Below are positions 6,507 through 28,696 of a stretch of 38,948 nucleotides of DNA, one piece after another. A program made the position numbers and the translations under genes. The notes below the pieces were generated by a model, which saw only the letters and a list, made by a program, of their open reading frames with translations, had not been told where the DNA came from and made no database searches. The DNA lies in contig CADDYX010000005.1 in assembly GCA_902810735.1 (NCBI GenBank), positions 1 through 38,948 of the forward strand. Direction: 5' to 3'. The stretch is from Verrucomicrobiota bacterium (GTDB taxonomy: Bacteria; Verrucomicrobiota; Verrucomicrobiia; Chthoniobacterales; UBA10450). How positions within the stretch are numbered: position 1 is the stretch's first letter; every line of letters begins with the position of its first letter.

Positions 6507-8069
6507 TCAACCCGGCTTCACGATGCGGCTGAGCTGCTCTCGCGCGGCTGCTTCGGCGGCAGCATCATCGTTGTAACCCCACGCCACAATTTCGAGCATC
6601 TGAGTCCCGACATCGCGCTTGCCTTGCTTGACCGCCTCCAGTCGCCCGGCAGCGGTCCAGTTTTCCGTATCCGACGCTGATTGCCGCTGCACCGTTCCAT
6701 CCCAGTAGCAGTAAAACACGTGCAGCGTTTCACCGTGGCTCTCGAAGACGTAGGATCGGATCGGTAACGCGACACCGTTCACCATCAACACGCGATTGTG
6801 AGCGCCGCCGCGTTGCGACATGCCGCTGGCCGGAAGACAAACATCCGGCCGGTGGTTCTTCACGAACAATCCGGCGGTCCGACCGGGCAACCAGCGGAAG
6901 AAATACATCGTCCAATCGTGGCCATCCGCGGCTGTCCAGGTGCCACCGCCGCCCTCGTTGTAACGCAAGAGCTCCTGTGCCGATTCGGCGACCGGGATGA
7001 CTTTCCATGCGTTCGCGTTGGTCGGCCATTGAACGCGCCATGGCTGCAATCGCGCGGTCGCCGCTTCGTGCATGCCATACCAAATCTGCGTTGCGCCTTC
7101 AGCAGAAATTGCGATTGCGAGCAGCGCGATGCTGAGTAGTCGCGGAATGCGGAATGGCGCCAGCCGATGCGGCTGTTCTGCATGGATATCTGGCGACAGA
7201 TTGCGCCGCAGAAACATGCTGATTGCCCAGAGCCCAAACAGACATGCGACGAGGATCGTCATGCCGGCGGGATCGTGCCAGCTCTTGATGGCTTGCGAGC
7301 CGTGCTCCGCACCCAGCCAAACGAGCAGGAAGGTGCGCGCGAGGTTGCAGAAAAACGCGAGGAATGCGCCGGCCACTACCAGCACGATGCGGCGCAGCAG
7401 GTCGAAGTTGTAAAATTCGCCGAGGAACAGCGAGACCATGAGCGTCGCCTGTAAGGAGCGAATACCGGTGCACGCTTCATCGATTCCGACGAACCCGGAG
7501 CCGACCTCGATGACATTGCCGAGCTGAACCGCCGGAATGCCGATCAGGTTCAGGATTTCGACATTCATTCGCGCGTCGACGCGCATCAGCCCCTGAATCA
7601 CGAACTGTTCGAGCTGGGTCGGCCACGGGACTGCGACCAGAAAAAACAGAATCGGGAATGCAAGGTGGCGCAGCCAGCGCGGGCCGCCGCACAAGTAGAC
7701 GGCGCCAGACGTGACCGCGACCGCGGACGCCGCCATGATCCAGCTCATCAACCGCCAGTCAGGATTCGCCTCCTGAATCACCCGCACTGGCAGCAACAAA
7801 AGCGCGGCGCCGAGCATCAGCGCGATCGCGGCGCCACGACGCTTCGGGCGGATCGGCGCGGGCGCGGTTTGCACCCGCAGCCAGAACAGATAGACAGCCA
7901 GGAACGGGACCGTCCAGCCGTAGCCGTATTGCGGATTAACGCTCCACTCGAGGCGCAGCCGCGCAATCAGCTCCAGCCAGACGAGCGCGACCGCAGCAAC
8001 GCCGAGCCAATCCACGGAATGCGCAGCTTTCGCTTCGGAGACCGGTTGGGTGAGGGTTGCCGCGTTCAT
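6507..8069 (-). CDS. exosortase fused to a C-terminal EpsI domain
   Basis: This encodes 520 residues. The N-terminal half (about 20-290) is an integral membrane exosortase with about eight hydrophobic segments. It carries the catalytic triad: Cys200 in EACTGIRSL, Arg245 in NLARTFLLVW and His265 in SWHDPAGM. After a linker and one more membrane segment (about 308-325) comes an EpsI-type extracytoplasmic domain with VKNHRPDVCLPASGM (Cys411). Exosortases cleave and anchor PEP-CTERM-like sorting tails, usually in species with exopolysaccharide loci; EpsI fusions are known, for example in the XrtD class. No protein in this window ends in a recognisable PEP-CTERM tail. The frame is open upstream with an ATG at 8129 and a GTG at 8168; I prefer MNAATLTQP at 8069, just before the first membrane region. 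It is divergent from a membrane TPR gene. Confidence 0.92.
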   Translation of the reverse strand: MNAATLTQPVSEAKAAHSVDWLGVAAVALVWLELIARLRLEWSVNPQYGYGWTVPFLAVYLFWLRVQTAPAPIRPKRRGAAIALMLGAALLLLPVRVIQEANPDWRLMSWIMAASAVAVTSGAVYLCGGPRWLRHLAFPILFFLVAVPWPTQLEQFVIQGLMRVDARMNVEILNLIGIPAVQLGNVIEVGSGFVGIDEACTGIRSLQATLMVSLFLGEFYNFDLLRRIVLVVAGAFLAFFCNLARTFLLVWLGAEHGSQAIKSWHDPAGMTILVACLFGLWAISMFLRRNLSPDIHAEQPHRLAPFRIPRLLSIALLAIAISAEGATQIWYGMHEAATARLQPWRVQWPTNANAWKVIPVAESAQELLRYNEGGGGTWTAADGHDWTMYFFRWLPGRTAGLFVKNHRPDVCLPASGMSQRGGAHNRVLMVNGVALPIRSYVFESHGETLHVFYCYWDGTVQRQSASDTENWTAAGRLEAVKQGKRDVGTQMLEIVAWGYNDDAAAEAAAREQLSRIVKPG

Positions 8070-8203
8070 CTGCGCAAAGAACCGTCGAAATGAGCAGAAT
8101 ACGAGCCCGCGCAGCACCGGCGCGGACATTGCTGTAGGTTGTACCGCAGCAGCCAACCGCTGGCACACGTCACGGAGCCGCGATAGCGTAACACTTCATC
8201 ACT

Positions 8204-15330: not shown

Positions 15331-15915
15331 TCAGGGATTCGTAATCTCGATTTCCCAGCAACAAACGCCGAGGACCCGCGCGTCGTTGCCCTGATTGACG
15401 GATTTCGGCGACGTCGCTTTCGGCGTGTTGAGCTGCAGTTTCAAAACGCCGTTGCCTGATTTGACGACGTCGGCTGGGACGGTCGCGCGGAAATCGGCGA
15501 GCGAGCCGACTTGCCAATCCGCGATCTTGTGACCGTTCGCGAGCAGCTCGACCGGCTGCTGCGGGAACGAAGGCGGATTGATCATCGCAGACATTTTGAA
15601 TCGCACGTTCAGGGCAGAGCCGGCGGAAGAGACCGGAAACGAAAGTGTTGCGCTGTTGCCGAGCGACCAGGTGAAATTCGGTTCTGTGTCACCCCAGCCG
15701 GAGACGCGAAATTTCTCCGATCCGCCGCCCTGCCCGAAGTGGATCGTTTTGCCGACGACGTCGCGGACCGCCGCCGGCGCCGACGCTGCAGGAGGCGATT
15801 GAGCGCCGACGTGTAACGGAAGGTAAACTGCAGCGATCAGCGACGCGGCCGTCGTTTTGCCGCAGACACGAAAAATGAGATGACGCACGGAGCAACAAAT
15901 CTGGCAGCGCGCCAT
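15331..15915 (-). CDS. exported beta-sandwich-like protein, second copy
   Basis: This encodes 194 residues with a long basic, cysteine-rich N-region and a hydrophobic stretch (about 22-38) that looks like a signal peptide ending near VGAQS. The mature part is beta-rich. It is clearly homologous to the protein at 17098-17700: shared positions include HFGQGGGSEKF, SGW, FTWSLGNSATL, AMINPPSFPQQPVELL, DWQVG, RATVP, TSPKSVNQGNDARVLGV and the closing WEIEI. The pattern recalls the extracytoplasmic beta-sandwich domain attached to some membrane glycosyltransferases (I think of the DUF7024 type), possibly sugar-binding. The ATG at 15915 is chosen; a TTG two codons upstream is also open. It follows a PIG-V-like gene by 34 bases on the same strand. 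Function inferred from neighbours only. Confidence 0.75.
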   Translation of the reverse strand: MARCQICCSVRHLIFRVCGKTTAASLIAAVYLPLHVGAQSPPAASAPAAVRDVVGKTIHFGQGGGSEKFRVSGWGDTEPNFTWSLGNSATLSFPVSSAGSALNVRFKMSAMINPPSFPQQPVELLANGHKIADWQVGSLADFRATVPADVVKSGNGVLKLQLNTPKATSPKSVNQGNDARVLGVCCWEIEITNP

Positions 15916-15949
15916 TGGCAAGACAGATTTCGCTCGCGCGCCGCCGCCG

Positions 15950-17101
15950 CTACGTCATCCAGTAGCCGTTCGCGTAGAGAACAGTGCAGATTGTAAGCAG
16001 CGCGATCGAGGCCGAGAGCAGCGATTCGTAAAGCCACTCAAAGCGCGTCGTCAACAGCGCCATCACCAGGAAGAGCGGAAAGAGGACGCTCACGTTGCGA
16101 GTAATCGCTTCCAGGCTGTTGGACGAGATGTAAACGAGCAGGAAGACGGCGGCGTAAACCTGGTAGCTTGGCCGAACCCGAAACATCAACCCGACGATCC
16201 AGAGCGCGGCCGATGCGACGACGGTGCCAAAAAAAAGCCAGCGATAAAACTGCGGGTAGTGATCCCAGCCCGAGAGCGCGACTACCGGAGAAGTCAGTTT
16301 TCTACCCCACACCGCGGTGGCGTGAAAGAAGGCGAGCGGATCGTGAAAGCGCAGTTGGCCGTAGAGCATGAACAGCCCGAACCCCGCCGGCACAAGCGCG
16401 AACAACAGGATGCGCGGGTGAAACAGTTTCCGCAGGTTCAGTCGCTGGCCGTGTTCCGGCTGCAGGTACTCGACTAACAACGGTAACGCGATGAGCAGCC
16501 CAACCTGCCGCGTTGCGGAAGCGCAGCCGCCGAGCACACATGCAATCAGCCATCGTTGTTTTCGCGCCGCCAGAAATGCGCCGAGCACAAGCATCAGGAA
16601 TGTCGATTCGGTGTAAACGCTCGAGAAGAAGAACGCGACCGGACTGAACATGAGGAACAGCACGGCGCGTCGCGGGACCCGTCGGTCGTTCGAGTCGAGT
16701 TTCACCAGCTGGTAAAATAAAAGGCCCGCTGCGCAAAGGCAGGCATTGGCCGTGATCACACCAGCGAGCGGCGCATTCCGGACGATGTGATTGAGCAGTC
16801 GCACGAGCAGCGGGAAGAAGGGAAAAAACCCCATGCGCGATTGGTGTTCGGTGGAGAAATCGTAGCCGCCCCGAACGATGCTGAGGTACCAACCCGAATC
16901 CCACTGCGTCAGGACAGCCATCAGACCGCCGGGGTGCCAGAAATTGCCGCGGACGATCACCGTTTTCGAGAAAAGCATCAGCGCGAAGATCAGCAGTCGC
17001 GACGTCGCGAACATCGCGACGACCCAGAGCCACTCAACGCGCACGCGCGGCAGCGGACGCTCGCCCTGATGGGTGGCGCTGACGTCGTCGGCTGATCTCA
17101 T
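15950..17101 (-). CDS. PIG-V-like GT-C mannosyltransferase, copy 1
   Basis: This encodes 383 residues with about ten hydrophobic segments. The first extracytoplasmic loop has TQWDSGWYLSIVRGGY with the acidic residue Asp68, followed by GFFPFFPLLVR. This is the signature arrangement of PIG-V/GPI mannosyltransferase-2-like GT-C enzymes, which move a sugar (mannose in the eukaryotic family) from a polyprenyl-phosphate donor on the outer face of the membrane. Later features include SPVAFFFSSVYTESTFLML. It ends in ANGYWMT, exactly as copy 2 does. Its ATG (17101-17099) overlaps the TGA of the upstream beta-sandwich gene (ATGA), so translation is coupled. The acceptor is unknown; a surface glycan or exported protein is plausible. 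Compared with copy 2, it lacks one residue inside the WD motif loop. Confidence 0.87.
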   Translation of the reverse strand: MRSADDVSATHQGERPLPRVRVEWLWVVAMFATSRLLIFALMLFSKTVIVRGNFWHPGGLMAVLTQWDSGWYLSIVRGGYDFSTEHQSRMGFFPFFPLLVRLLNHIVRNAPLAGVITANACLCAAGLLFYQLVKLDSNDRRVPRRAVLFLMFSPVAFFFSSVYTESTFLMLVLGAFLAARKQRWLIACVLGGCASATRQVGLLIALPLLVEYLQPEHGQRLNLRKLFHPRILLFALVPAGFGLFMLYGQLRFHDPLAFFHATAVWGRKLTSPVVALSGWDHYPQFYRWLFFGTVVASAALWIVGLMFRVRPSYQVYAAVFLLVYISSNSLEAITRNVSVLFPLFLVMALLTTRFEWLYESLLSASIALLTICTVLYANGYWMT

Positions 17102-17700
17102 TGATCGCGCGGCGGCTCCGGCGAGCGGTCGATCACCAGCTCGTACACTTTCATGCCGAGACGACGATCATCACGGCCTTGACCCACTTCGGCCGGAGAA
17201 ATCGGCCGGCCAATGTGGAACTCAAATCGCACAATGCTCTCGTCCGGGTTCTGCATAAACTGCGGCGGAATTGTCGCGTTGTAGAATTTCGTCTGCGCGA
17301 TTTGCCAGTGCGCGAGCACCTTGAAATTCCCCGGCCGGCCAAATGGCTCGACGATCCGCACCTCGACCGGCTGAGCCGGCAATTTCGGCGGATCGACCAT
17401 TGCGCCCGCCTTGACGTGTAGAAATACCGGCGTCCGTGAAAAGCGAAGCCGACAGCCGAGCGATGCGACTGGACCGTCAGTCCAGGTGAACTCCTGTTCC
17501 ATCGCCGACCAGCCTTCGATCTCGAAGCGTTCCGCTTCCCCGCCGAGTCCGAACAGCACACGCTCGCCGTATTCATAAACGTGGGTGCGGGGCCGCGCTT
17601 CCGCGCTGCGCCGTTCGTTGTCCTTCCCGCACGCGCTGAAAAGCACCGGCGCCGCCGCGAGCAACAGAGGTGAAGCGAATCGAGCAAAGCGCGGCAGCAT
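17098..17700 (-). CDS. exported beta-sandwich-like lipoprotein, first copy
   Basis: This encodes 200 residues. The N-terminus (LLLAAAPVLFSACGKD) is a lipoprotein-like signal with Cys24; Phe at -3 is a less usual lipobox residue. The mature domain (about 45-195) matches the protein at 15331-15915: VLFGLGGEAERFEIEGW, EFTWTDGPVASL, AMVDPPKLPAQPVEV, HWQIAQ, NATIP, ISPAEVGQGRDDRRLGM and YELVID. The fold looks like an all-beta sandwich with possible carbohydrate-binding or partner role. The ATG at 17700 lies three bases after the stop of GT-C copy 2, and the stop overlaps the start of GT-C copy 1 by four bases, so all are one operon. Function is unknown; co-occurrence with GT-C enzymes is the main clue. 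Confidence 0.78.
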   Translation of the reverse strand: MLPRFARFASPLLLAAAPVLFSACGKDNERRSAEARPRTHVYEYGERVLFGLGGEAERFEIEGWSAMEQEFTWTDGPVASLGCRLRFSRTPVFLHVKAGAMVDPPKLPAQPVEVRIVEPFGRPGNFKVLAHWQIAQTKFYNATIPPQFMQNPDESIVRFEFHIGRPISPAEVGQGRDDRRLGMKVYELVIDRSPEPPRDQ

Positions 17701-17703
17701 TGC

Positions 17704-18969
17704 TCAGGTCATCCAATAACCGTTCGCGGACATGATCGTGAGCAAACCGAGGAGGCAGACCGAGCAGCCGAGCAGCGGTTCGTAACTCCACCTGAACTTC
17801 GCCGCGAGGAGCCCGAGCACGATGAACAGCGGGAACTCAACGCTGACGTACCTCGGAAACGCTTCGAATGTTGCCGAGCAGAGGTAGAGAAACGTCAGCG
17901 ATGCCGCAAATATGAGGTAGCTGGCACGAAGGCGAAATCCGACGCCGAGCAACAACAACAGCAGGGTGATCACGACCGTGCCGGAGAACAGAAGGTAGTA
18001 GAACGTCGTATACGTGCGCAGGAACGAGAGCGTGTGCAGGGGAGAGGTGAACGAACGGCCGAATACTTTCGCGGCATGGCTGAAAGCAAGCGCATCGTGG
18101 AACGCGACGAAGTCGTAAGCCATGTACAATCCGAGGCCGAGCGGCACCAGAGCAAGCAGCAGAATTCGGCGCTCGAGCAGCGCGGCGAGAGTACGGTCGG
18201 ACAACCACCAGTGCCTCAGGTATTCGAACGCCAATGGCAGCACGATGAGCACGCCCGGAGGGCGGGACGCGGCGAGAAGCATTCCCGCCAAACACGCGGC
18301 GAGCCATCGTCCTTTGCGCGCCGCAAAGAACGCGATCGTCGCCAGCATGAAGAAGGTCGATTCGGTGTAGGCGTTCGAATAGAAGAAGGCGACCGGGTTG
18401 AACAGGAACAGCATGACCGCAGCGCGGCTGACGCGCGGGTCTTTGTAATCGAGCCGCACCAGTGCGTTGAGGAAGAGCGCGGCGGTAAGCAGCGAAAGAT
18501 GTGAGACGACGAGCGCCGCGATCCGCAGATCGCGAAAAACGATCGAGAAGAGTTTGATCAGCAGCGGGTAGAGCGGAAAAAATCCGTGCGGCAGATGATC
18601 GCCGGCCGCGATGTGGTACCCGTGCCGCGCAATCTGGATGTACCAGAGCTCGCCGTCCCACTGCGTGAGGACGCTGACGAGTCCGCCCGGATGCCACCAC
18701 GCCGCATGCACCATCACCATTCGCGAGAGCACGATGATGGCGAAAATGATCAGCCGTGATGCAACAAATCCGGCGAATACAACTGCGGCGCCGTTGAAAA
18801 ACTGGCGCTGCTCCTCCTGCCGGACCCAATGACCGAGCCGGTTCTCGAACAACGCAAGGACGCGCGCGAGCGCGGCAGCAATGCGCGACGGCAGCAACGC
18901 CGCTGGCCAATTCGGCTGCGCGCTCTGCGGCCTTCGGGTTGCGGAGCTCGAGAAATGAGGAGAATCCAT
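17704..18969 (-). CDS. PIG-V-like GT-C mannosyltransferase, copy 2
   Basis: This encodes 421 residues from the ATG at 18969. About 55 mostly polar residues precede the first membrane segment. About ten membrane segments follow. The GT-C motif is TQWDGELWYIQIARHGY (Asp105) followed by HGFFPLYPLLIK, then NPVAFFYSNAYTESTFFML, all aligning with copy 1 at 15950-17101. The C-terminus is again ANGYWMT. Family knowledge predicts transfer of mannose or a related sugar from a polyprenyl-phosphate donor. The frame stays open to an ATG at 19038 and a TTG at 19077, adding an Arg-rich stretch; I could not decide firmly. It is the first gene of the minus-strand run down to 15331 and is divergent from a DPM1-like GT2 at 19134 that could supply the donor. 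Confidence 0.85.
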   Translation of the reverse strand: MDSPHFSSSATRRPQSAQPNWPAALLPSRIAAALARVLALFENRLGHWVRQEEQRQFFNGAAVVFAGFVASRLIIFAIIVLSRMVMVHAAWWHPGGLVSVLTQWDGELWYIQIARHGYHIAAGDHLPHGFFPLYPLLIKLFSIVFRDLRIAALVVSHLSLLTAALFLNALVRLDYKDPRVSRAAVMLFLFNPVAFFYSNAYTESTFFMLATIAFFAARKGRWLAACLAGMLLAASRPPGVLIVLPLAFEYLRHWWLSDRTLAALLERRILLLALVPLGLGLYMAYDFVAFHDALAFSHAAKVFGRSFTSPLHTLSFLRTYTTFYYLLFSGTVVITLLLLLLGVGFRLRASYLIFAASLTFLYLCSATFEAFPRYVSVEFPLFIVLGLLAAKFRWSYEPLLGCSVCLLGLLTIMSANGYWMT

Positions 18970-19133
18970 CGTCTTGCGCGACCGCGGGCGCCGCGACGAC
19001 AATCGCCGCAGGTCGTTTGAGCGCGCGATGGTACGCATAACGGTGCAGCCACGCAACTGCGCGCTGCTCGCGACCAAATTGCCAGTTGAGCCGCACCCAA
19101 AGTATGTGCTAACGGGGTAGGCTTCTCCTCAGC

Positions 19134-19918: not shown

Positions 19919-21055
19919 ATGAAGCCAACCAAGACCTGTATTGTTCTCACCACGATCAACGCCGGCGGAATTCTCGACGGCTACTGCAAACAAGCGGAAC
20001 AGGAAGGCGTTCGCGAGCAGCTCGAGATCATTGTGATTCCGGACCGGAAGACGCCTGGGGAGCTCTTCACAAAGTGCGATGCAGTGCGCAGGCAGGGATT
20101 CAAAGTCGCGTGTCCGAGCGTCGAAGAGCAGGACGAGTATCTAAAGCGCTTCGGCAACATGGCGCAGTTGGTGCCCTACAATTCCGATAACCGCCGCAAC
20201 ATCGGCTATCTCATGTCGCTAGAGACGGATTGCGAGGTTTTGCTTTCCATCGACGACGACAACTACGCGATTGGCGAGACGTACGGAACGTCGGCGATCG
20301 TATGTCAGGACAACGTGACGCTGCCCGCCGTTCACAGCAGCAACGGCTGGTTCAACTTCTGTGACATGCTCGAGCTCGAGCCGAACTACCGCGTCTTCCC
20401 TCGCGGTTTTCCGTATCACAAACGGACTGACACTCCGCAGCTGACCTACAAGGAAGAAACCGGCCGCGTTCGCATGAATGTCGGATTGTGGCTGCAGGAG
20501 CCGGACCTGGATGCGATCACCTGGCTCGCCGCGCCGGTCCGAGCGCGATCGTTCAAGCCGTACAACGGCGGCTCGATTTTACTCGGTGACGACGCGTGGA
20601 GCCCAATCAATACCCAGAACACCGCACTCCATCGCGATGTGACGGTGACGTATTATTTTGTGCGCATGGGCTATCCGCTCGCTGGCCTGCCGATTGACCG
20701 CTACGGCGACATTTTCAGCGGATATCTCTCGCAGGCGTGCGTCCGCCACATGGGCGACCGGATTCGGGTCGGCACGCCGGTCGCGGATCACAGAAGAAAC
20801 GCACACAACTACATGCGCGACCTCGCCGGCGAGCTGGCCTGCGTAATGGTGCTCGAGCCGATCCTCGAGTGGTTGCCGGAGGCGAAGCTGGAAGGCAGCA
20901 ATTACGGCGACGTTTATCTGTCGCTAGCAGACGCGATCGAGCAGGAAGTCGTCCGCTTTACCGGCCAGATCTGGAACGACGCGACGCGCGGGTATTTCCA
21001 CCAGATGGCGTACTGCATGCGCCAGTGGGTGAAGGCCTGCCGGCTGATCGGCTAG
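19919..21055 (+). CDS. reversibly glycosylated polypeptide (GT75)-like protein
   Basis: This encodes 378 residues, soluble. The order of motifs follows plant reversibly glycosylated polypeptides / UDP-arabinopyranose mutases. NIGYLMSLE leads into the acidic LSIDDDNYAIGE (like IDDDCF in plants). FPRGFPY follows, then VGLWLQEPDLDA (like GLWLNIPDYDA), NTALHRDV and a DRYGDIFSGYLSQACVRHMG block like GRYDDMWAGWCIKVICDHL. A C-terminal helical part follows. Plant enzymes interconvert UDP-arabinopyranose and UDP-arabinofuranose and self-glycosylate; bacterial relatives exist but their substrates are poorly known. I assign the family with fair confidence, not the reaction. It lies between a DPM1-like GT2 and a GDP-mannose 3,5-epimerase, 26 and 129 bases away, in a probable operon for nucleotide-sugar handling. 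Confidence 0.72.
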   Translation: MKPTKTCIVLTTINAGGILDGYCKQAEQEGVREQLEIIVIPDRKTPGELFTKCDAVRRQGFKVACPSVEEQDEYLKRFGNMAQLVPYNSDNRRNIGYLMSLETDCEVLLSIDDDNYAIGETYGTSAIVCQDNVTLPAVHSSNGWFNFCDMLELEPNYRVFPRGFPYHKRTDTPQLTYKEETGRVRMNVGLWLQEPDLDAITWLAAPVRARSFKPYNGGSILLGDDAWSPINTQNTALHRDVTVTYYFVRMGYPLAGLPIDRYGDIFSGYLSQACVRHMGDRIRVGTPVADHRRNAHNYMRDLAGELACVMVLEPILEWLPEAKLEGSNYGDVYLSLADAIEQEVVRFTGQIWNDATRGYFHQMAYCMRQWVKACRLIG

Positions 21056-21184
21056 TTTTACTTTTTGCAAATCGCGCCGGGCTGGCCATATTCGGCGCTC
21101 CGCGGAATTTGGGGAGTTGCCGATGCAGCTACGGTTCCGCGCCCGTTGGGGAACGCCGTCGGGTCGATGGCAGCGGTAACTATT

Positions 21185-22168
21185 ATGAGCGACAAAGTTG
21201 TTGTTTGCGGCGGCGGCGGATTCATCGGCGGCCATTTGGTGGCCGATCTGCGGCGTCAGGGGAAAAGCGTTCGCGCCGCAGATGTGAAGCCGCTCTCCGA
21301 GTGGTACCAGCGGTTCGACGATGTCGAGAACCTGCAGCTCGATCTTGATCTGCGTGAGTCCTGCGAGGAGGCGGTAGACGGGATGGCGGAAATTTACAAC
21401 CTCGCCGCTGACATGGGCGGGATGGGCTTCATCGAAAACAACAAGGCGCTCTGCATGATCACGGTGCTGATCAACACGCACCTGTTGCTCGCGGTCAAAG
21501 AGCGAAAGATCGATCGCTACTTCTACGCGTCGTCGGCGTGTGTCTATAACGCAGAGAAGCAGACCTCGCCCGACGTCGTCGCGCTGCGAGAAGAGGACGC
21601 CTACCCCGCGCTCGCCGAAGACGGCTACGGCTGGGAAAAACTGTTCAGCGAACGCATGTGCCGGCATTTCCGGGAAGACTTCGGAGTGCCGACACGCGTC
21701 GCGCGTTATCACAACGTCTACGGTCCGTTCGGCACGTTCGAGGGCGGTCGGGAGAAAGCTCCTGCCGCGATATGCCGCAAAGTCATTCAGGCGAAGCTGT
21801 CAGGAAGCCACGAGATCGAAATTTGGGGGGACGGTCACCAGACGCGCAGCTTTATGTACATCGACGACTGTGTGAAAGGCACGCAGATGATCATGCACAG
21901 CGACATTCTGGAGCCGATCAATCTCGGCAGTAGCGAGCTCGTCACGATTAATCAGCTGGTCGACATCGTGGAGCAGATCGCGGGTGTGAAATTAAAGCGC
22001 AATTACAACCTGTCGGCGCCAAAGGGAGTGAATGGCCGCAACAGCGACAACACGATGATCAAGCGGCTGCTGAATTGGGAGCCGTCCATTCGTCTGCGCG
22101 ACGGGCTCGAGAAGACGTATCGCTGGATTTACGATCAGATGTCGCAGCGCGTGCCGCACGCGGCATAG
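21185..22168 (+). CDS. GDP-mannose 3,5-epimerase-like extended SDR
   Basis: This encodes 327 residues. The Rossmann motif is VVCGGGGFIGGHLVADL. The active-site layout matches plant GDP-mannose 3,5-epimerase: ADMGGMGFIENN, Cys119 in YASSACVYN, Tyr148 and Lys152 in YGWEK, HNVYGPFGTFEGGREKAPAA with Lys191, WGDGHQTRSF and VNGRNSDNT. That enzyme converts GDP-D-mannose to GDP-L-galactose and GDP-L-gulose with a tightly bound NAD. The similarity is extensive enough that a simple UDP-glucose 4-epimerase is unlikely, though product balance cannot be predicted. The ATG at 21185 is chosen; the frame is open to a TTG at 21065, but the extra 40 residues do not resemble the family. The gene ends one base before the stop of the convergent half-GT4 gene. 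Confidence 0.9.
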   Translation: MSDKVVVCGGGGFIGGHLVADLRRQGKSVRAADVKPLSEWYQRFDDVENLQLDLDLRESCEEAVDGMAEIYNLAADMGGMGFIENNKALCMITVLINTHLLLAVKERKIDRYFYASSACVYNAEKQTSPDVVALREEDAYPALAEDGYGWEKLFSERMCRHFREDFGVPTRVARYHNVYGPFGTFEGGREKAPAAICRKVIQAKLSGSHEIEIWGDGHQTRSFMYIDDCVKGTQMIMHSDILEPINLGSSELVTINQLVDIVEQIAGVKLKRNYNLSAPKGVNGRNSDNTMIKRLLNWEPSIRLRDGLEKTYRWIYDQMSQRVPHAA

Positions 22169-24031: not shown

Positions 24032-25501
24032 TCACTTCACGGCGATGACCGCATAATCCTGCGGGCCGTAGAAGAATTCGTTGAACCGCCGGGTCAAGTC
24101 GTCGTTGTCGGTGTCGATCTCTAATGCTTCCGCGGAATTCAAAGGCAGAACGGTTACTTCGCGGAACCCGGCGTTTGCCACAAGGAACTCGGTGGAATCA
24201 GCCGGCAACGGTCGCCGGTGTGTATAGTCGCGGTAAAAATAATGTGCGCCGACCTGGATATTCGCCGGGTTTGGCGTTTCGAATATGAGCAGACCGCCGG
24301 GGCGGAGAGCGCGCCAGCTTTGTTGCACCAGCTCCATCAGTTGAGCGAAGGGGAGGTGCTCAATCAAGTGGAAGGCTGTGATCGCGCCGAGGCTTTCCGG
24401 TGGCGAATGAGTGACGTACTCGAGCGCGTCACCGGCTGTGACGCGGAGTTGTTGCTCGGTGCAAAGCTGCACCATCAGCTGGTTCAAGTCGACGCCGTGC
24501 GCGGTTAGATGTGATTCCTGCAAAAGCTCGAGCCATTCTCCGCGTCCACAGCCGAGATCGAGCACCGGTCGCTCTTCCGAACCCGCCTCTGCCTTCAGAA
24601 TGTATGGAACATAAACTTCGAGGCGGCATTTTACCTCGTCGCGTGGCCCGCGAAACCGATCCTCGAACGCGACGTAGAACGCATCCAGCGAACGCGCGTG
24701 CGCCTCGTCGACGGCTTGACGTGCAGTGGTTTTCCGCGAGGCGCCGCGTTCCGGCGAGATCGAGCGAAGAAGATCAGCGTAGATCGTGATCTGCGACTTC
24801 AGAAACGCGCTATCGCGCAGATGCCTCTCTTCGGTCCGCGCTAAATCGGCGCGCGCTGCGGCCGTCGCATCCTCGATGCGTTGCAGCGCAGCTTCGTACT
24901 GGCGTTGACGGTCGTCGGTCTGAGCGGATAGCGAATCGAGGCGCTCTACCCGGCTCTCCACCTGCGCCTGTCGCGCCTGCAAGGTCCGGAGGTCGTCGGC
25001 CTCCGATGCTGCCTCGGCGGTGAGGCGGCTGAGTTCCTGTTCCAGACCTGTCGCGTGTTCAATCGTCTGTGCGATCGCTCGTGTAGCGGTGTCGCGTGAG
25101 CTTGCGACGATTTCCAGCCAGCGCGTTTGCACCTTCAGATGCTCGTAGAGCAAGCTCGCATGGTTGTGCATCTGCTCGATCCGTTTCGCGAGCTGCGATA
25201 CCAGATCCAAAATCGTCTGGTCGTATTTGCCCTGCTTTCGAAACAGCCGACGCAGAAACTTCGGAATGTGCCGATCGACGTGAACCGCTTTCTCGGCGGC
25301 CGCAATTAACTCGGAAACCCGCTGCGACTTCAGCGACTTTGGCGCGAGGTGATCGACGCCGGGCACCGGTGGTAAGCTCGACGGCGGCTCTGGTAATAGC
25401 TCCGGCGTGCCGTTCGACACGCGAAGAGTCCCTCCAGCCGACGCAGCCCGGATCCGTTCGACCAGGTCCTGAACCTCTACATCGATCTCGTTCGCGTCCA
25501 T
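24032..25501 (-). CDS. coiled-coil plus class I SAM-dependent methyltransferase
   Basis: This encodes 489 residues. After a Pro-rich leader (about 30-55) a long heptad-rich helical region spans about 95-248 (for example LRTLQARQAQVESRVERLDS), likely a coiled coil. A helical linker (262-301, DAFYVAFEDRFRG) leads to a Rossmann methyltransferase domain. That domain has motif I VLDLGCGRGEW (313-323), the acidic motif II GVDLN, AFHLIEHLPF, and LRPGGLLIFETPNP. Coiled-coil methyltransferases of this sort occur in polysaccharide loci; in WbdD a methyltransferase and a coiled coil together set O-antigen length. Here the coil is N-terminal and no kinase domain is seen, so the comparison is only an analogy. 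The ATG at 25501 (MDANEID) is preferred over upstream frame to 25582, close to tRNA-Lys. It leads the operon to 22170. Confidence 0.85.
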   Translation of the reverse strand: MDANEIDVEVQDLVERIRAASAGGTLRVSNGTPELLPEPPSSLPPVPGVDHLAPKSLKSQRVSELIAAAEKAVHVDRHIPKFLRRLFRKQGKYDQTILDLVSQLAKRIEQMHNHASLLYEHLKVQTRWLEIVASSRDTATRAIAQTIEHATGLEQELSRLTAEAASEADDLRTLQARQAQVESRVERLDSLSAQTDDRQRQYEAALQRIEDATAAARADLARTEERHLRDSAFLKSQITIYADLLRSISPERGASRKTTARQAVDEAHARSLDAFYVAFEDRFRGPRDEVKCRLEVYVPYILKAEAGSEERPVLDLGCGRGEWLELLQESHLTAHGVDLNQLMVQLCTEQQLRVTAGDALEYVTHSPPESLGAITAFHLIEHLPFAQLMELVQQSWRALRPGGLLIFETPNPANIQVGAHYFYRDYTHRRPLPADSTEFLVANAGFREVTVLPLNSAEALEIDTDNDDLTRRFNEFFYGPQDYAVIAVK

Positions 25502-25577
25502 TCCGCAATCGCCGCCTAACCGGCAGCCAACGCGAGGGAGGACTTCAGGCCGCGCGCCACTCCGTCCAGTGCGGCTC

Positions 25578-25650
25578 TGCACCGTGTAGGAATCGAACCT
25601 ACAACCCAGTGATTAAGAGTCACTTGCTCTGCCAATTGAGCTAACGGTGC
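25578..25650 (-). tRNA. tRNA-Lys (anticodon CTT)
   Basis: The minus strand folds into a full cloverleaf: acceptor stem GCACCGT with ACGGTGC, D arm GCTC/GAGC, anticodon stem AGTGA/TCACT with loop CTCTTAA, and T arm GTAGG/CCTAC with loop TTCGATT. The loop gives anticodon CTT, so it reads the lysine codon AAG. The discriminator is A at 25578 and the CCA is not encoded. Length is 73 bases. It sits between the GYF/bPH gene and the coiled-coil methyltransferase, with no obvious terminator. The long frame crossing it is an artefact. Confidence 0.97.
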
Positions 25651-26494: not shown

Positions 26495-27307
26495 CTATCG
26501 CTGCTCGGCGTGCGGCGTCTCGGCGAGGTACGCCTCGAGTGCTTCGCGCGTGATCGTGTGCCGGGCGCCGCAGCGCGGGCAGCTGATCTTCAACAGATCG
26601 TCGTCGCCGAACAATCCAGCCGCATCACTGCGCATGATCGGCGCGAGAATTGAGAACATTCGCTCCTGCGAACATCCACAGCTCCACCGATAGATGCGCT
26701 GCTCGAGCAGACTGAGCGTCTGCGTTTGATCGACGGTGCGAATCTGCTCGTCGTCGAGATTGTAGAGCCAGGCGAGATCGCAGCCTGGCTGTGCCGAGAC
26801 CATCACGAAATCCTCCGGCCCGTAGCGGAAATAGCGTGCCGGCCGCTGTTCGCTGCGCTCGTAAAACTGCTCGACGATTCCGAACGGCTCCGAGCCCTCA
26901 AACTGGATTGCGCTCCTTCGCGATTCGCCGCGCTCGCGCACGAGATCGGCGTAGAAGAGATTTCGGCCGTCCTCTTTCACATTCTCGGTGAAGAGCTGAC
27001 CGACGATGATCCCGCGGCGGTTATCACCCGTCACGAACATGTTCATCAGCGGCTCCTGCAAATGGATGGTCCACGCCCAGGCCTCGTTCCAAGGACGCGA
27101 TGCGCAGTGCAGCGTCAGCGCAGCCAGCGTTTCCTTCAGCAAAGCATCATGCGGCGGCGCGTGCTGGTAGCCGTGCTGCCCCTGGTGCAGATAATAATCG
27201 ACATACAGCTCGCCAAAATCGGCGCGAGCGAGCAGAGCGTTACGCTCACGAACGAAATAGGTCCGGACCTCCAGCCCGTCGGCCGCATTTGGATCTCCCT
27301 TGTCCAT
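26495..27307 (-). CDS. hslO: Hsp33-family redox-regulated chaperone
   Basis: This encodes 270 residues, near the usual 280-295. Hsp33 is a cytoplasmic holdase switched on by oxidation of a zinc centre. The four zinc cysteines are here: Cys210 and Cys212 (SCGCSQERM) and Cys243 and Cys246 (SCPRCGARH). The 31-residue spacing between the pairs equals that of the E. coli protein. The N-terminal holdase domain has NEAWAWTIHLQEPLMNMFVTG and NLFYADLVRERGESR. The frame stays open upstream to 28522, antisense to the amidohydrolase; that part has no Hsp33 similarity, so the ATG at 27307 (MDKGDPN) is the start. It is divergent from the amidohydrolase with 75 bases between starts, and upstream of the GYF/bPH gene. 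Confidence 0.9.
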   Translation of the reverse strand: MDKGDPNAADGLEVRTYFVRERNALLARADFGELYVDYYLHQGQHGYQHAPPHDALLKETLAALTLHCASRPWNEAWAWTIHLQEPLMNMFVTGDNRRGIIVGQLFTENVKEDGRNLFYADLVRERGESRRSAIQFEGSEPFGIVEQFYERSEQRPARYFRYGPEDFVMVSAQPGCDLAWLYNLDDEQIRTVDQTQTLSLLEQRIYRWSCGCSQERMFSILAPIMRSDAAGLFGDDDLLKISCPRCGARHTITREALEAYLAETPHAEQR

Positions 27308-27382
27308 CTGAAAATTTAGACGCTCGCGCGAAAATGTCCGCCGCTTTTCACCGCCTCGACAGCAGATTACAGTCGATCCGAT

Positions 27383-28696
27383 TTGCATCTGAGGACGAAA
27401 ACGGTACTTGCGGCGCTGATCACGTTGATGAGCCTGACGATCTCCGCATTGGCCGAATCGCAGCCGATTCTGCTGCGTCCGGCGGCGGTGTTTGACGGAC
27501 AGGAAGTGCATTCCGGTTGGGCAGTGCTGGTGAACGGCAACAAAATCACTGCTGCCGGCCCGGCGGCAGAGGTGAACGCGACGCCGAACGCGCGCACGAT
27601 CGATCTGGCCGGAGCGACGTTGCTGCCGGGCCTGATCGAAGGCCATTCGCATCTGCTGCTCCACGCCTACAACGAAACGACGTGGAACGACCAGGTGACG
27701 AACGAATCGCAGGCGTTGCGTGTCGCGCGCGCGACCGTTCACGCGCAGCGGACCTTGCTCGCCGGCTTTACGACCGCGCGCGATCTCGGCACCGAAGGCG
27801 CCGGATTCGCTGATGTCGGATTGAAGCAGGCGATCGAGCAGGGGATCATTCCCGGTCCGCGGCTGATCGTCGTCACCCGCGCGCTCGTCGCGAAGGGAAG
27901 CTACGGGCCGAAACTCTCGCCCGACCTCGATGTGCCGCAAGGCGCCCAGGAGGTGAGCGGCGTCGACGAATGCGTGCGCGGCGCGCGTGAGCAGATCGGC
28001 AAAGGCGCCGACTGGGTGAAAGTGTATGCCGATTACCGCTGGGGAAAAGACGAGCCGTCGCGCCCGACCTTTTCGCAGGAGGAGATCGCTGCGATTGTCA
28101 ATGCCGCGCACTCCGCCGGCCGGCCGGTCGCTTCGCATGCAACGACCGCTGAGGGAATTCGCCGGTCGGTGCTCGCCGGCGTCGACACGATCGAGCACGG
28201 CGACAGCGGAACTGCGGAAGTATTCGCATTGATGAAGCAGCGCGGCGTGCCGCTTTGTCCAACCGTTGCGGCGAGTGACGCGATCGCGCAGTATCGCGGC
28301 TGGAAAAAGGGAAGCGAGCCGGAGCCGGATCGGATCAAAGAGAAGCACGCCAGCATGGCAGCGGCGCGAAAAGCCGGTGTCAGCTTTGCTTTTGGAGGCG
28401 ATGTCGGCGTTTTTCCGCACGGCGAAAACGCGCGCGAGATGGAGTTGCTCGTGCACGAATACGGGTTCAATCCCGTGGAAGTGTTGCGGCAAGCGACGAG
28501 CGGGAACGCCGCGATTTTTCACCTCGCAGATCGTGGCAGCGTGCGTGCGGGTTTGCTCGCTGACGTGATCGCAGTAGCGGGCGATCCGACGCAGGATATT
28601 TCAGCGGTACGCGCTGTTCAGTTTGTGATGAAGAACGGCGCGATCGTGAAGCAACCAATGACACCAGGAGAAAGCACATCGAATGTTACCCACTAG
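27383..28696 (+). CDS. exported metal-dependent amidohydrolase
   Basis: This encodes 437 residues starting at a TTG (27383), giving a good signal peptide (about 1-24, RTKTVLAALITLMSLTISALA). The next ATG would remove its basic region, so the TTG is chosen. The amidohydrolase metal sites are visible: His88 and His90 in GLIEGHSH, the likely bridging Lys213 in WVKVYADY, His252 in VASHATTAEG, His272 in IEHGDSG and Asp340 in FGGDVGVF. Such exported enzymes of the imidazolonepropionase/prolidase-like group hydrolyse amides or dipeptides; substrate unknown. The 3' end overlaps the Tat-SDR gene by 14 bases, so the two are coupled. It opens the run of six genes to 34439. Confidence 0.88.
   Translation: MHLRTKTVLAALITLMSLTISALAESQPILLRPAAVFDGQEVHSGWAVLVNGNKITAAGPAAEVNATPNARTIDLAGATLLPGLIEGHSHLLLHAYNETTWNDQVTNESQALRVARATVHAQRTLLAGFTTARDLGTEGAGFADVGLKQAIEQGIIPGPRLIVVTRALVAKGSYGPKLSPDLDVPQGAQEVSGVDECVRGAREQIGKGADWVKVYADYRWGKDEPSRPTFSQEEIAAIVNAAHSAGRPVASHATTAEGIRRSVLAGVDTIEHGDSGTAEVFALMKQRGVPLCPTVAASDAIAQYRGWKKGSEPEPDRIKEKHASMAAARKAGVSFAFGGDVGVFPHGENAREMELLVHEYGFNPVEVLRQATSGNAAIFHLADRGSVRAGLLADVIAVAGDPTQDISAVRAVQFVMKNGAIVKQPMTPGESTSNVTH

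Follow-up and report, generated by a model that had tools for sequence, protein, structure and literature searches.

A 38,948-nucleotide stretch of the genome of a soil bacterium from the phylum Verrucomicrobiota (assembly GCA_902810735.1, contig CADDYX010000005.1; hereafter the window) encodes two PIG-V-like membrane glycosyltransferases of the GT-C type, GT-C2 and GT-C1, each followed on the minus strand by the gene of a small exported protein (small1 and small2, respectively). The two enzymes are homologous to each other, as are the two small proteins, which have predicted export signals and a predicted beta-sandwich fold. Furthermore, the pairing is conserved in relatives, where the same domain is also fused to other glycan enzymes. 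We give about an even chance to the reading that the small proteins are detached glycan-binding accessory modules assisting GT-Cs that use a polyprenyl-phosphate sugar. The glycan binding, a physical complex between the partners and the identity of the sugar and acceptor are what we infer in that reading. The four genes are as follows (transmembrane counts are hydrophobicity-based and approximate):

17704..19077, minus strand: GT-C2, PIG-V-like polytopic glycosyltransferase, about 8 transmembrane segments
17098..17700, minus strand: small1, putative lipoprotein (LFSAC) with a single jelly-roll beta-sandwich domain, a remote relative of DUF7024
15950..17101, minus strand: GT-C1, PIG-V-like polytopic glycosyltransferase, about 7 transmembrane segments
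15331..15921, minus strand: small2, exported protein without a lipobox, with a single jelly-roll beta-sandwich domain

All four lie where a preliminary description of the window had placed them, in the order GT-C2, small1, GT-C1, small2. That description had also called the genes tightly coupled, which holds for two of the junctions: GT-C2 and small1 are 3 bases apart (17701–17703), and small1 and GT-C1 overlap in an ATGA (17098–17101). The third junction, between GT-C1 and small2, is looser, with a gap of about 28 bases.

The PIG-V-like glycosyltransferases

GT-C1 and GT-C2 are 48% identical across 358 residues (E 2e-99) and, as first noted, share the WD, FFP and YTESTF-ML motifs and an identical ANGYWMT end. 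Both exceed the curated Pfam cutoff (22.4 bits) of the PIG-V family (PF04188), with scores of 41.9 bits for GT-C2 and 38.1 bits for GT-C1, in a partial match to profile positions 53–218 of 443. They differ from the family in being bacterial and shorter and in covering only part of the profile. In the alignment of their clade, the aspartate of a TQWD motif (D68), located after the first hydrophobic segment, is invariant in all nine members and provides the acidic residue that characterizes the first extracytoplasmic loop of these polytopic proteins. The true start of GT-C2 may be a later ATG, because its first ~90 residues are poorly conserved. A sequence search of the PDB with the GT-C pair returned no match.

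Sugar attachment by both enzymes probably takes place on the external side of the cell membrane. They had been labeled GT-C mannosyltransferases and treated as PIG-V-like; the family assignment stands, but mannose is only one candidate for the sugar they move, because a neighboring GDP-mannose 3,5-epimerase points to L-galactose (L-Gal) or L-gulose (L-Gul) as plausible alternatives.

The small exported proteins

The homology proposed for the small proteins is also borne out, at 30% identity over 148 columns (E 3e-26) and with the FG-GG, FTW, PP..P.QPVE and D-x-R-x-LG patterns in both. Each has a predicted signal sequence, consistent with the export first suggested; that of small1 ends in a lipobox-like motif (LFSAC), and that of small2 has no lipobox. 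Of the 21 homologues that stand alone or in tandem, 18 have a lipobox-type cysteine.

AlphaFold2 models built from a 10-sequence alignment agree with the beta-sandwich fold anticipated in the preliminary description. Both are jelly rolls modeled with high confidence, with a predicted local distance difference test (pLDDT) score of 92.4 and a predicted template modeling (pTM) score of 0.86 for small2, and 88.6 and 0.85 for small1. This is the fold of carbohydrate-binding modules (CBMs), and Foldseek searches against the PDB retrieved CBM36, CBM35 and BcsB for small2 and CBM16, CBM36, BcsB, MAM and other jelly rolls for small1. Lectins were also among the matches, which had E-values of ~1e-4 to 1e-5 and TM-scores of ~0.4–0.5. 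The modeled fold is thus best described as a CBM-like jelly roll, which by itself is no proof that sugar is bound. Searches of Pfam and NCBIfam with small1 and small2 gave no match at all, known CBM families included; a PDB sequence search with the small domain found nothing credible, and phage records held no relatives.

Domain family and fusions

The closest described domain type is DUF7024 (PF22895), the C-terminal domain of OpgB/MdoB-like phosphoglycerol transferases. A direct DUF7024 match was expected in this genome, a candidate that was rejected when the search gave none: small1 and small2 do not match the model at E-values up to 10 and fall short of its curated cutoff. Three of 19 small-protein homologues match it weakly (best E 0.003). 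At the profile level, hhalign aligned the small proteins over the length of the domain (129 columns, probability 98.3%, E 2e-14) with two domains of locus L166 that do pass the DUF7024 cutoff, and NCBIfam assigns the OpgB/MdoB C-terminal region to the same stretch of L166. The length and the order of the motifs (G[FW]S..E, W[ST].G..A and SP..LG.S.D.R.LG) are also alike, as is the C-terminal position that related domains take in periplasm-facing glycan enzymes. The window proteins differ in being stand-alone and exported. Because they miss the model, we file them, on this profile evidence, as remote relatives of DUF7024 and not as members.

Two further copies of the small domain in this genome are C-terminal domains of larger proteins. 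In relatives, the domain occurs at the C-terminus of long multi-transmembrane proteins, two of them with DUF6311, and is fused in one protein to an acyltransferase-3 domain (Acyl_transf_3) and in another to a sulfatase fold. It is also present in family 2 and family 4 glycosyltransferase (GT2 and GT4) proteins. DUF7024-type domains therefore look like general accessories of glycan enzymes. Because the small domain is fused to such varied partners, it is probably an accessory module in wide use among glycan enzymes, of which the stand-alone proteins would be the detached version.

Fusions of the small domain or its DUF7024 relatives can be seen at L156 (4557–6638, acyltransferase-3), L165 (617–2818, sulfatase-fold protein) and L166 (9211–11514, tandem copies in a secreted protein beside an MBOAT-like gene). 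Large multi-transmembrane proteins also lie near stand-alone small genes at L070 (1496–4192) and L072 (5463–7775); at the C-terminus they seem to carry beta domains of another kind, with a D-P-R motif at the end and no Pfam match.

Conservation of the pairing

We surveyed the pairing in 83 genomes of the host GTDB family, which are metagenome-assembled genomes (MAGs) with short contigs, using genes called by a simple open reading frame caller. The GT-C clade of the window was delimited by clade-profile scores of 507–625 bits, the next genes scoring below 224, and is confined to two genera. A small gene directly adjoins 10 of the 12 clade GT-Cs, if one gene truncated at the end of its contig is included. 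One of the other two shares its contig with a small gene at a distance of ~5 kb; the second (genome G021, L154 2046–3410) lies on a short contig and has an in-frame TGA, which indicates a broken gene or an assembly error. A small gene likewise adjoins three more distant PIG-V-like genes, all from one of the two genera (the second), and none of the other 25 distant PIG-V-like genes of the family. Nor did these 25 loci share any other recurrent exported partner. Outside the family, no such small gene adjoins the clade-like GT-Cs of G214, G455 and G494. A scan of genome contigs with a narrow alignment found six loci in Chthoniobacterales/Spartobacteria MAGs, the sole named relatives to turn up.

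Counted from the small proteins, 11 of the 21 stand-alone or tandem copies adjoin a PIG-V-like gene. The pairing exceeds chance but is local. The proposal that each GT-C works with its own exported partner gains from the linkage across two genera and from the correlated divergence described below. It does not extend to PIG-V-like enzymes generally, since those outside the two genera lack the small gene, and the small family is not dedicated to these enzymes, given the copies without a PIG-V-like neighbor and the many other fusions.

In another family of the order (L157 5504–7308), a PIG-V-like glycosyltransferase overlaps by 4 bp the gene of an exported 192-aa protein, which has a different sequence, looks beta-rich and adjoins a 710-aa multi-transmembrane protein with the small domain. 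This is possibly an independent version of the pairing.

History of the two units

The preliminary description had presented the locus as a duplicated two-gene module. Two homologous pairs are indeed present, but the GT-C and small-protein trees reject a recent tandem duplication of the unit. GT-C2 groups with a GT-C of G002, from another genus (99/97), and small1 with the small partner of that same enzyme (96/82). The GT-Cs of G035 and G028 likewise form a group (99/99), and their small partners another (98/91). The clade of small2 is not that of small1, and the protein most like small2 (53%) is a copy without a PIG-V-like neighbor. For each of the four genes, the counterpart in the other unit of the window is more distant than relatives from other genomes. 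Judging by these placements, the two units are old, diverged and partly reassembled, with no fresh duplication.

The divergence of the GT-C and small partners is correlated across 11 pairs (r = 0.37, permutation p = 0.0045) and across the 8 clade pairs alone (r = 0.40, p = 0.04).

In G002, two facing contig ends carry the 5' half of a small gene in near-identical form (L067 4316–4969 and L068 476–1138). The two diverge after ~90 codons, which could mean that a tandem duplication occurred recently or that the assembly broke within an array of repeats.

Proposed role and alternatives

In the proposed mechanism, a DPM1-like enzyme encoded next to GT-C2 would load mannose, or L-Gal/L-Gul derived from the neighboring epimerase, onto polyprenyl phosphate. 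The GT-C would then pass the sugar to a growing surface glycan at the outer face of the inner membrane, and the tethered beta-sandwich would keep the acceptor or product glycan close to the enzyme. The small proteins, mostly lipid-anchored, would thus serve periplasmic glycan assembly, each being paired in this lineage with a PIG-V-like GT-C. The closest analogy is with the arabinosyltransferases EmbC and EmbB, which combine a GT-C, a polyprenyl-phosphate donor and an outward-facing CBM of beta-sandwich fold, to which the acceptor binds and which is required for activity (PMC3044687). For example, tryptophan substitutions in the fused CBM of EmbC lowered acceptor binding and activity (PMC3044687). 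The mycobacterial CBM is part of the enzyme, whereas here it would be a separate, mostly lipid-anchored protein working with a PIG-V-like GT-C. Cellulose synthase offers another parallel, in that BcsA is a membrane glycosyltransferase with a periplasmic partner, BcsB, that has CBM-like jelly rolls and is among the Foldseek matches. BcsA, however, is a processive GT2 acting on UDP-glucose, and BcsB is far larger and transmembrane-anchored.

Several observations weigh against this role. Most PIG-V-like enzymes have no small-gene neighbor, and of the 21 stand-alone or tandem small proteins, 10 have no adjacent PIG-V-like gene and occur instead in other glycan loci, many of which carry a methyltransferase/GT4 pair. 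Some fusion partners are apparently cytosolic GT2 and GT4 proteins, meaning that the periplasm is not the only place for the domain. What Foldseek retrieved are jelly rolls of a generic kind, MAM and Cry domains among them, and these matches therefore do not establish sugar binding. Lastly, the p-value of the correlation rests on 11 pairs only.

The copies in glycan loci without a PIG-V-like gene also favor an anchoring role. The lipoproteins could bind or anchor glycan with no involvement of the GT-C; they might, for instance, retain the completed polymer at the outer membrane or present it for export, and adjacency would then reflect a shared locus. The lipobox in most copies agrees with such a role, as do the orthologues of the window methyltransferase and GT4 found near a small gene in G006, G009, G014 and G038. 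We regard this main alternative as possible, though with a probability clearly below one half; against it stand the tight glycosyltransferase-then-small order (a 3-base gap or an overlap) in 10 of the 12 clade members and in the three distant pairs, the correlated divergence of the partners and the fusion of the domain to glycan enzymes.

The accessory-module reading can also be sharpened. Each GT-C and its downstream lipoprotein could form a dedicated two-subunit glycosyltransferase analogous to those with PIG-X/Pbn1 or Pga1, using an L-galactose/L-gulose-type polyprenyl-phosphate donor supplied by the epimerase and the DPM1-like enzyme. We consider this more specific version doubtful. Its model would be the eukaryotic Gpi14-Pbn1 and Gpi18-Pga1 (PIG-V type) systems, in which a GT-C catalytic subunit works with a separate partner (PMC12653191). 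Gpi14 and Pbn1 form a complex, the glycosylphosphatidylinositol (GPI) mannosyltransferase I (PIG-M/PIG-X), whereas Gpi18-Pga1 is GPI mannosyltransferase II; Pbn1 has a beta-rich lumenal domain (PMC12653191). These partners are anchored by a transmembrane helix, and the likeness to the small proteins is no claim of sequence relation. The preliminary description knew of no exported beta-sandwich partner of a GT-C, but beta-rich partners do have precedents: Gpi14-Pbn1 (PMC12653191) and the fused CBM of EmbC (PMC3044687) both provide one.

Alternatively, the small lipoprotein could be an acceptor substrate glycosylated by the GT-C, as actinobacterial lipoproteins are by Pmt enzymes. Its export, its adjacency to the enzyme and the Ser/Thr/Pro-rich linker that follows the lipobox in some homologues suit a substrate. 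Yet the linker of small1 is short and not Ser/Thr-rich, and the enzyme fusions in relatives suit an enzyme module better, making this explanation improbable. It is just as hard to credit that tandem duplication and shuffling in gene-rich glycan loci brought the genes together without function: the restriction of the pairs to two genera and the ongoing duplication apparent in the G002 copies (L067, L068) would fit, but gene order is kept between genera even though the GT-C pairs are just ~45–52% identical, the partner distances are correlated and the geometry is that of translational coupling.

The accessory-module reading suggests that, in place of the fused domain of other enzymes, bacterial GT-Cs can make use of a lipoprotein encoded by a gene of its own, and it gives the uncharacterized DUF7024-related domain a likely role in glycan binding. 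Should the partners truly form a complex, acceptor recognition by GT-Cs could be approached through a small soluble protein, and the helper subunits of GPI mannosyltransferases, which are poorly understood, would have a model in bacteria.

The surrounding locus

Three genes follow one another on the opposite strand, beginning next to GT-C2:

19134..19892, plus strand: DPM1-like polyprenyl-phosphate glycosyltransferase (GT2); Glycos_transf_2 1.3e-19; PDB dolichol-P-mannose synthase 5mlz 4e-12
19919..21055, plus strand: reversibly glycosylated polypeptide (RGP; GT75-like) family protein; PF03214 1.4e-11
21065..22168, plus strand: GDP-mannose 3,5-epimerase homologue; PDB 2c59 3e-90

The DPM1-like gene diverges from GT-C2, with 56 bases between them, and has orthologues beside the module in G002, G035 and G028. 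Its product is the probable supplier of the donor lipid to the GT-C, and its adjacency supports a polyprenyl-phosphate donor for these enzymes. The epimerase homologue, with orthologues in the G002, G014 and G028 loci, is the probable source of GDP-L-Gal or GDP-L-Gul. RGP-family orthologues occur in the G002 and G014 loci. All three genes are thus represented near the module in G002, whereas G028 has the GT2 and the epimerase, as fragments, and G035 the GT2 only; in G014, a subset lies beside a lone small gene. The first characterized bacterial GDP-mannose 3,5-epimerase is from Methylacidiphilum, with a proposed role in lipopolysaccharide synthesis (PMC6678494). The RGP and epimerase pair (19919–22168) could provide a bacterial route to a glycan containing L-galactose or L-gulose, perhaps in furanose form.

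GT4 and methyltransferase genes lie farther along, and the window as a whole looks like a locus for surface glycan in a bacterium of the Chthoniobacterales type. The methyltransferase domain at 24032–25582 follows a predicted coiled-coil region and resembles WbdD-type chain terminators; its orthologues lie near small genes in several genomes. The window also encodes a 553-aa protein with an Exosortase EpsH domain (6507–8168) and a 675-aa protein (26495–28522) recognizable only by its Hsp33-like C-terminal zinc region.

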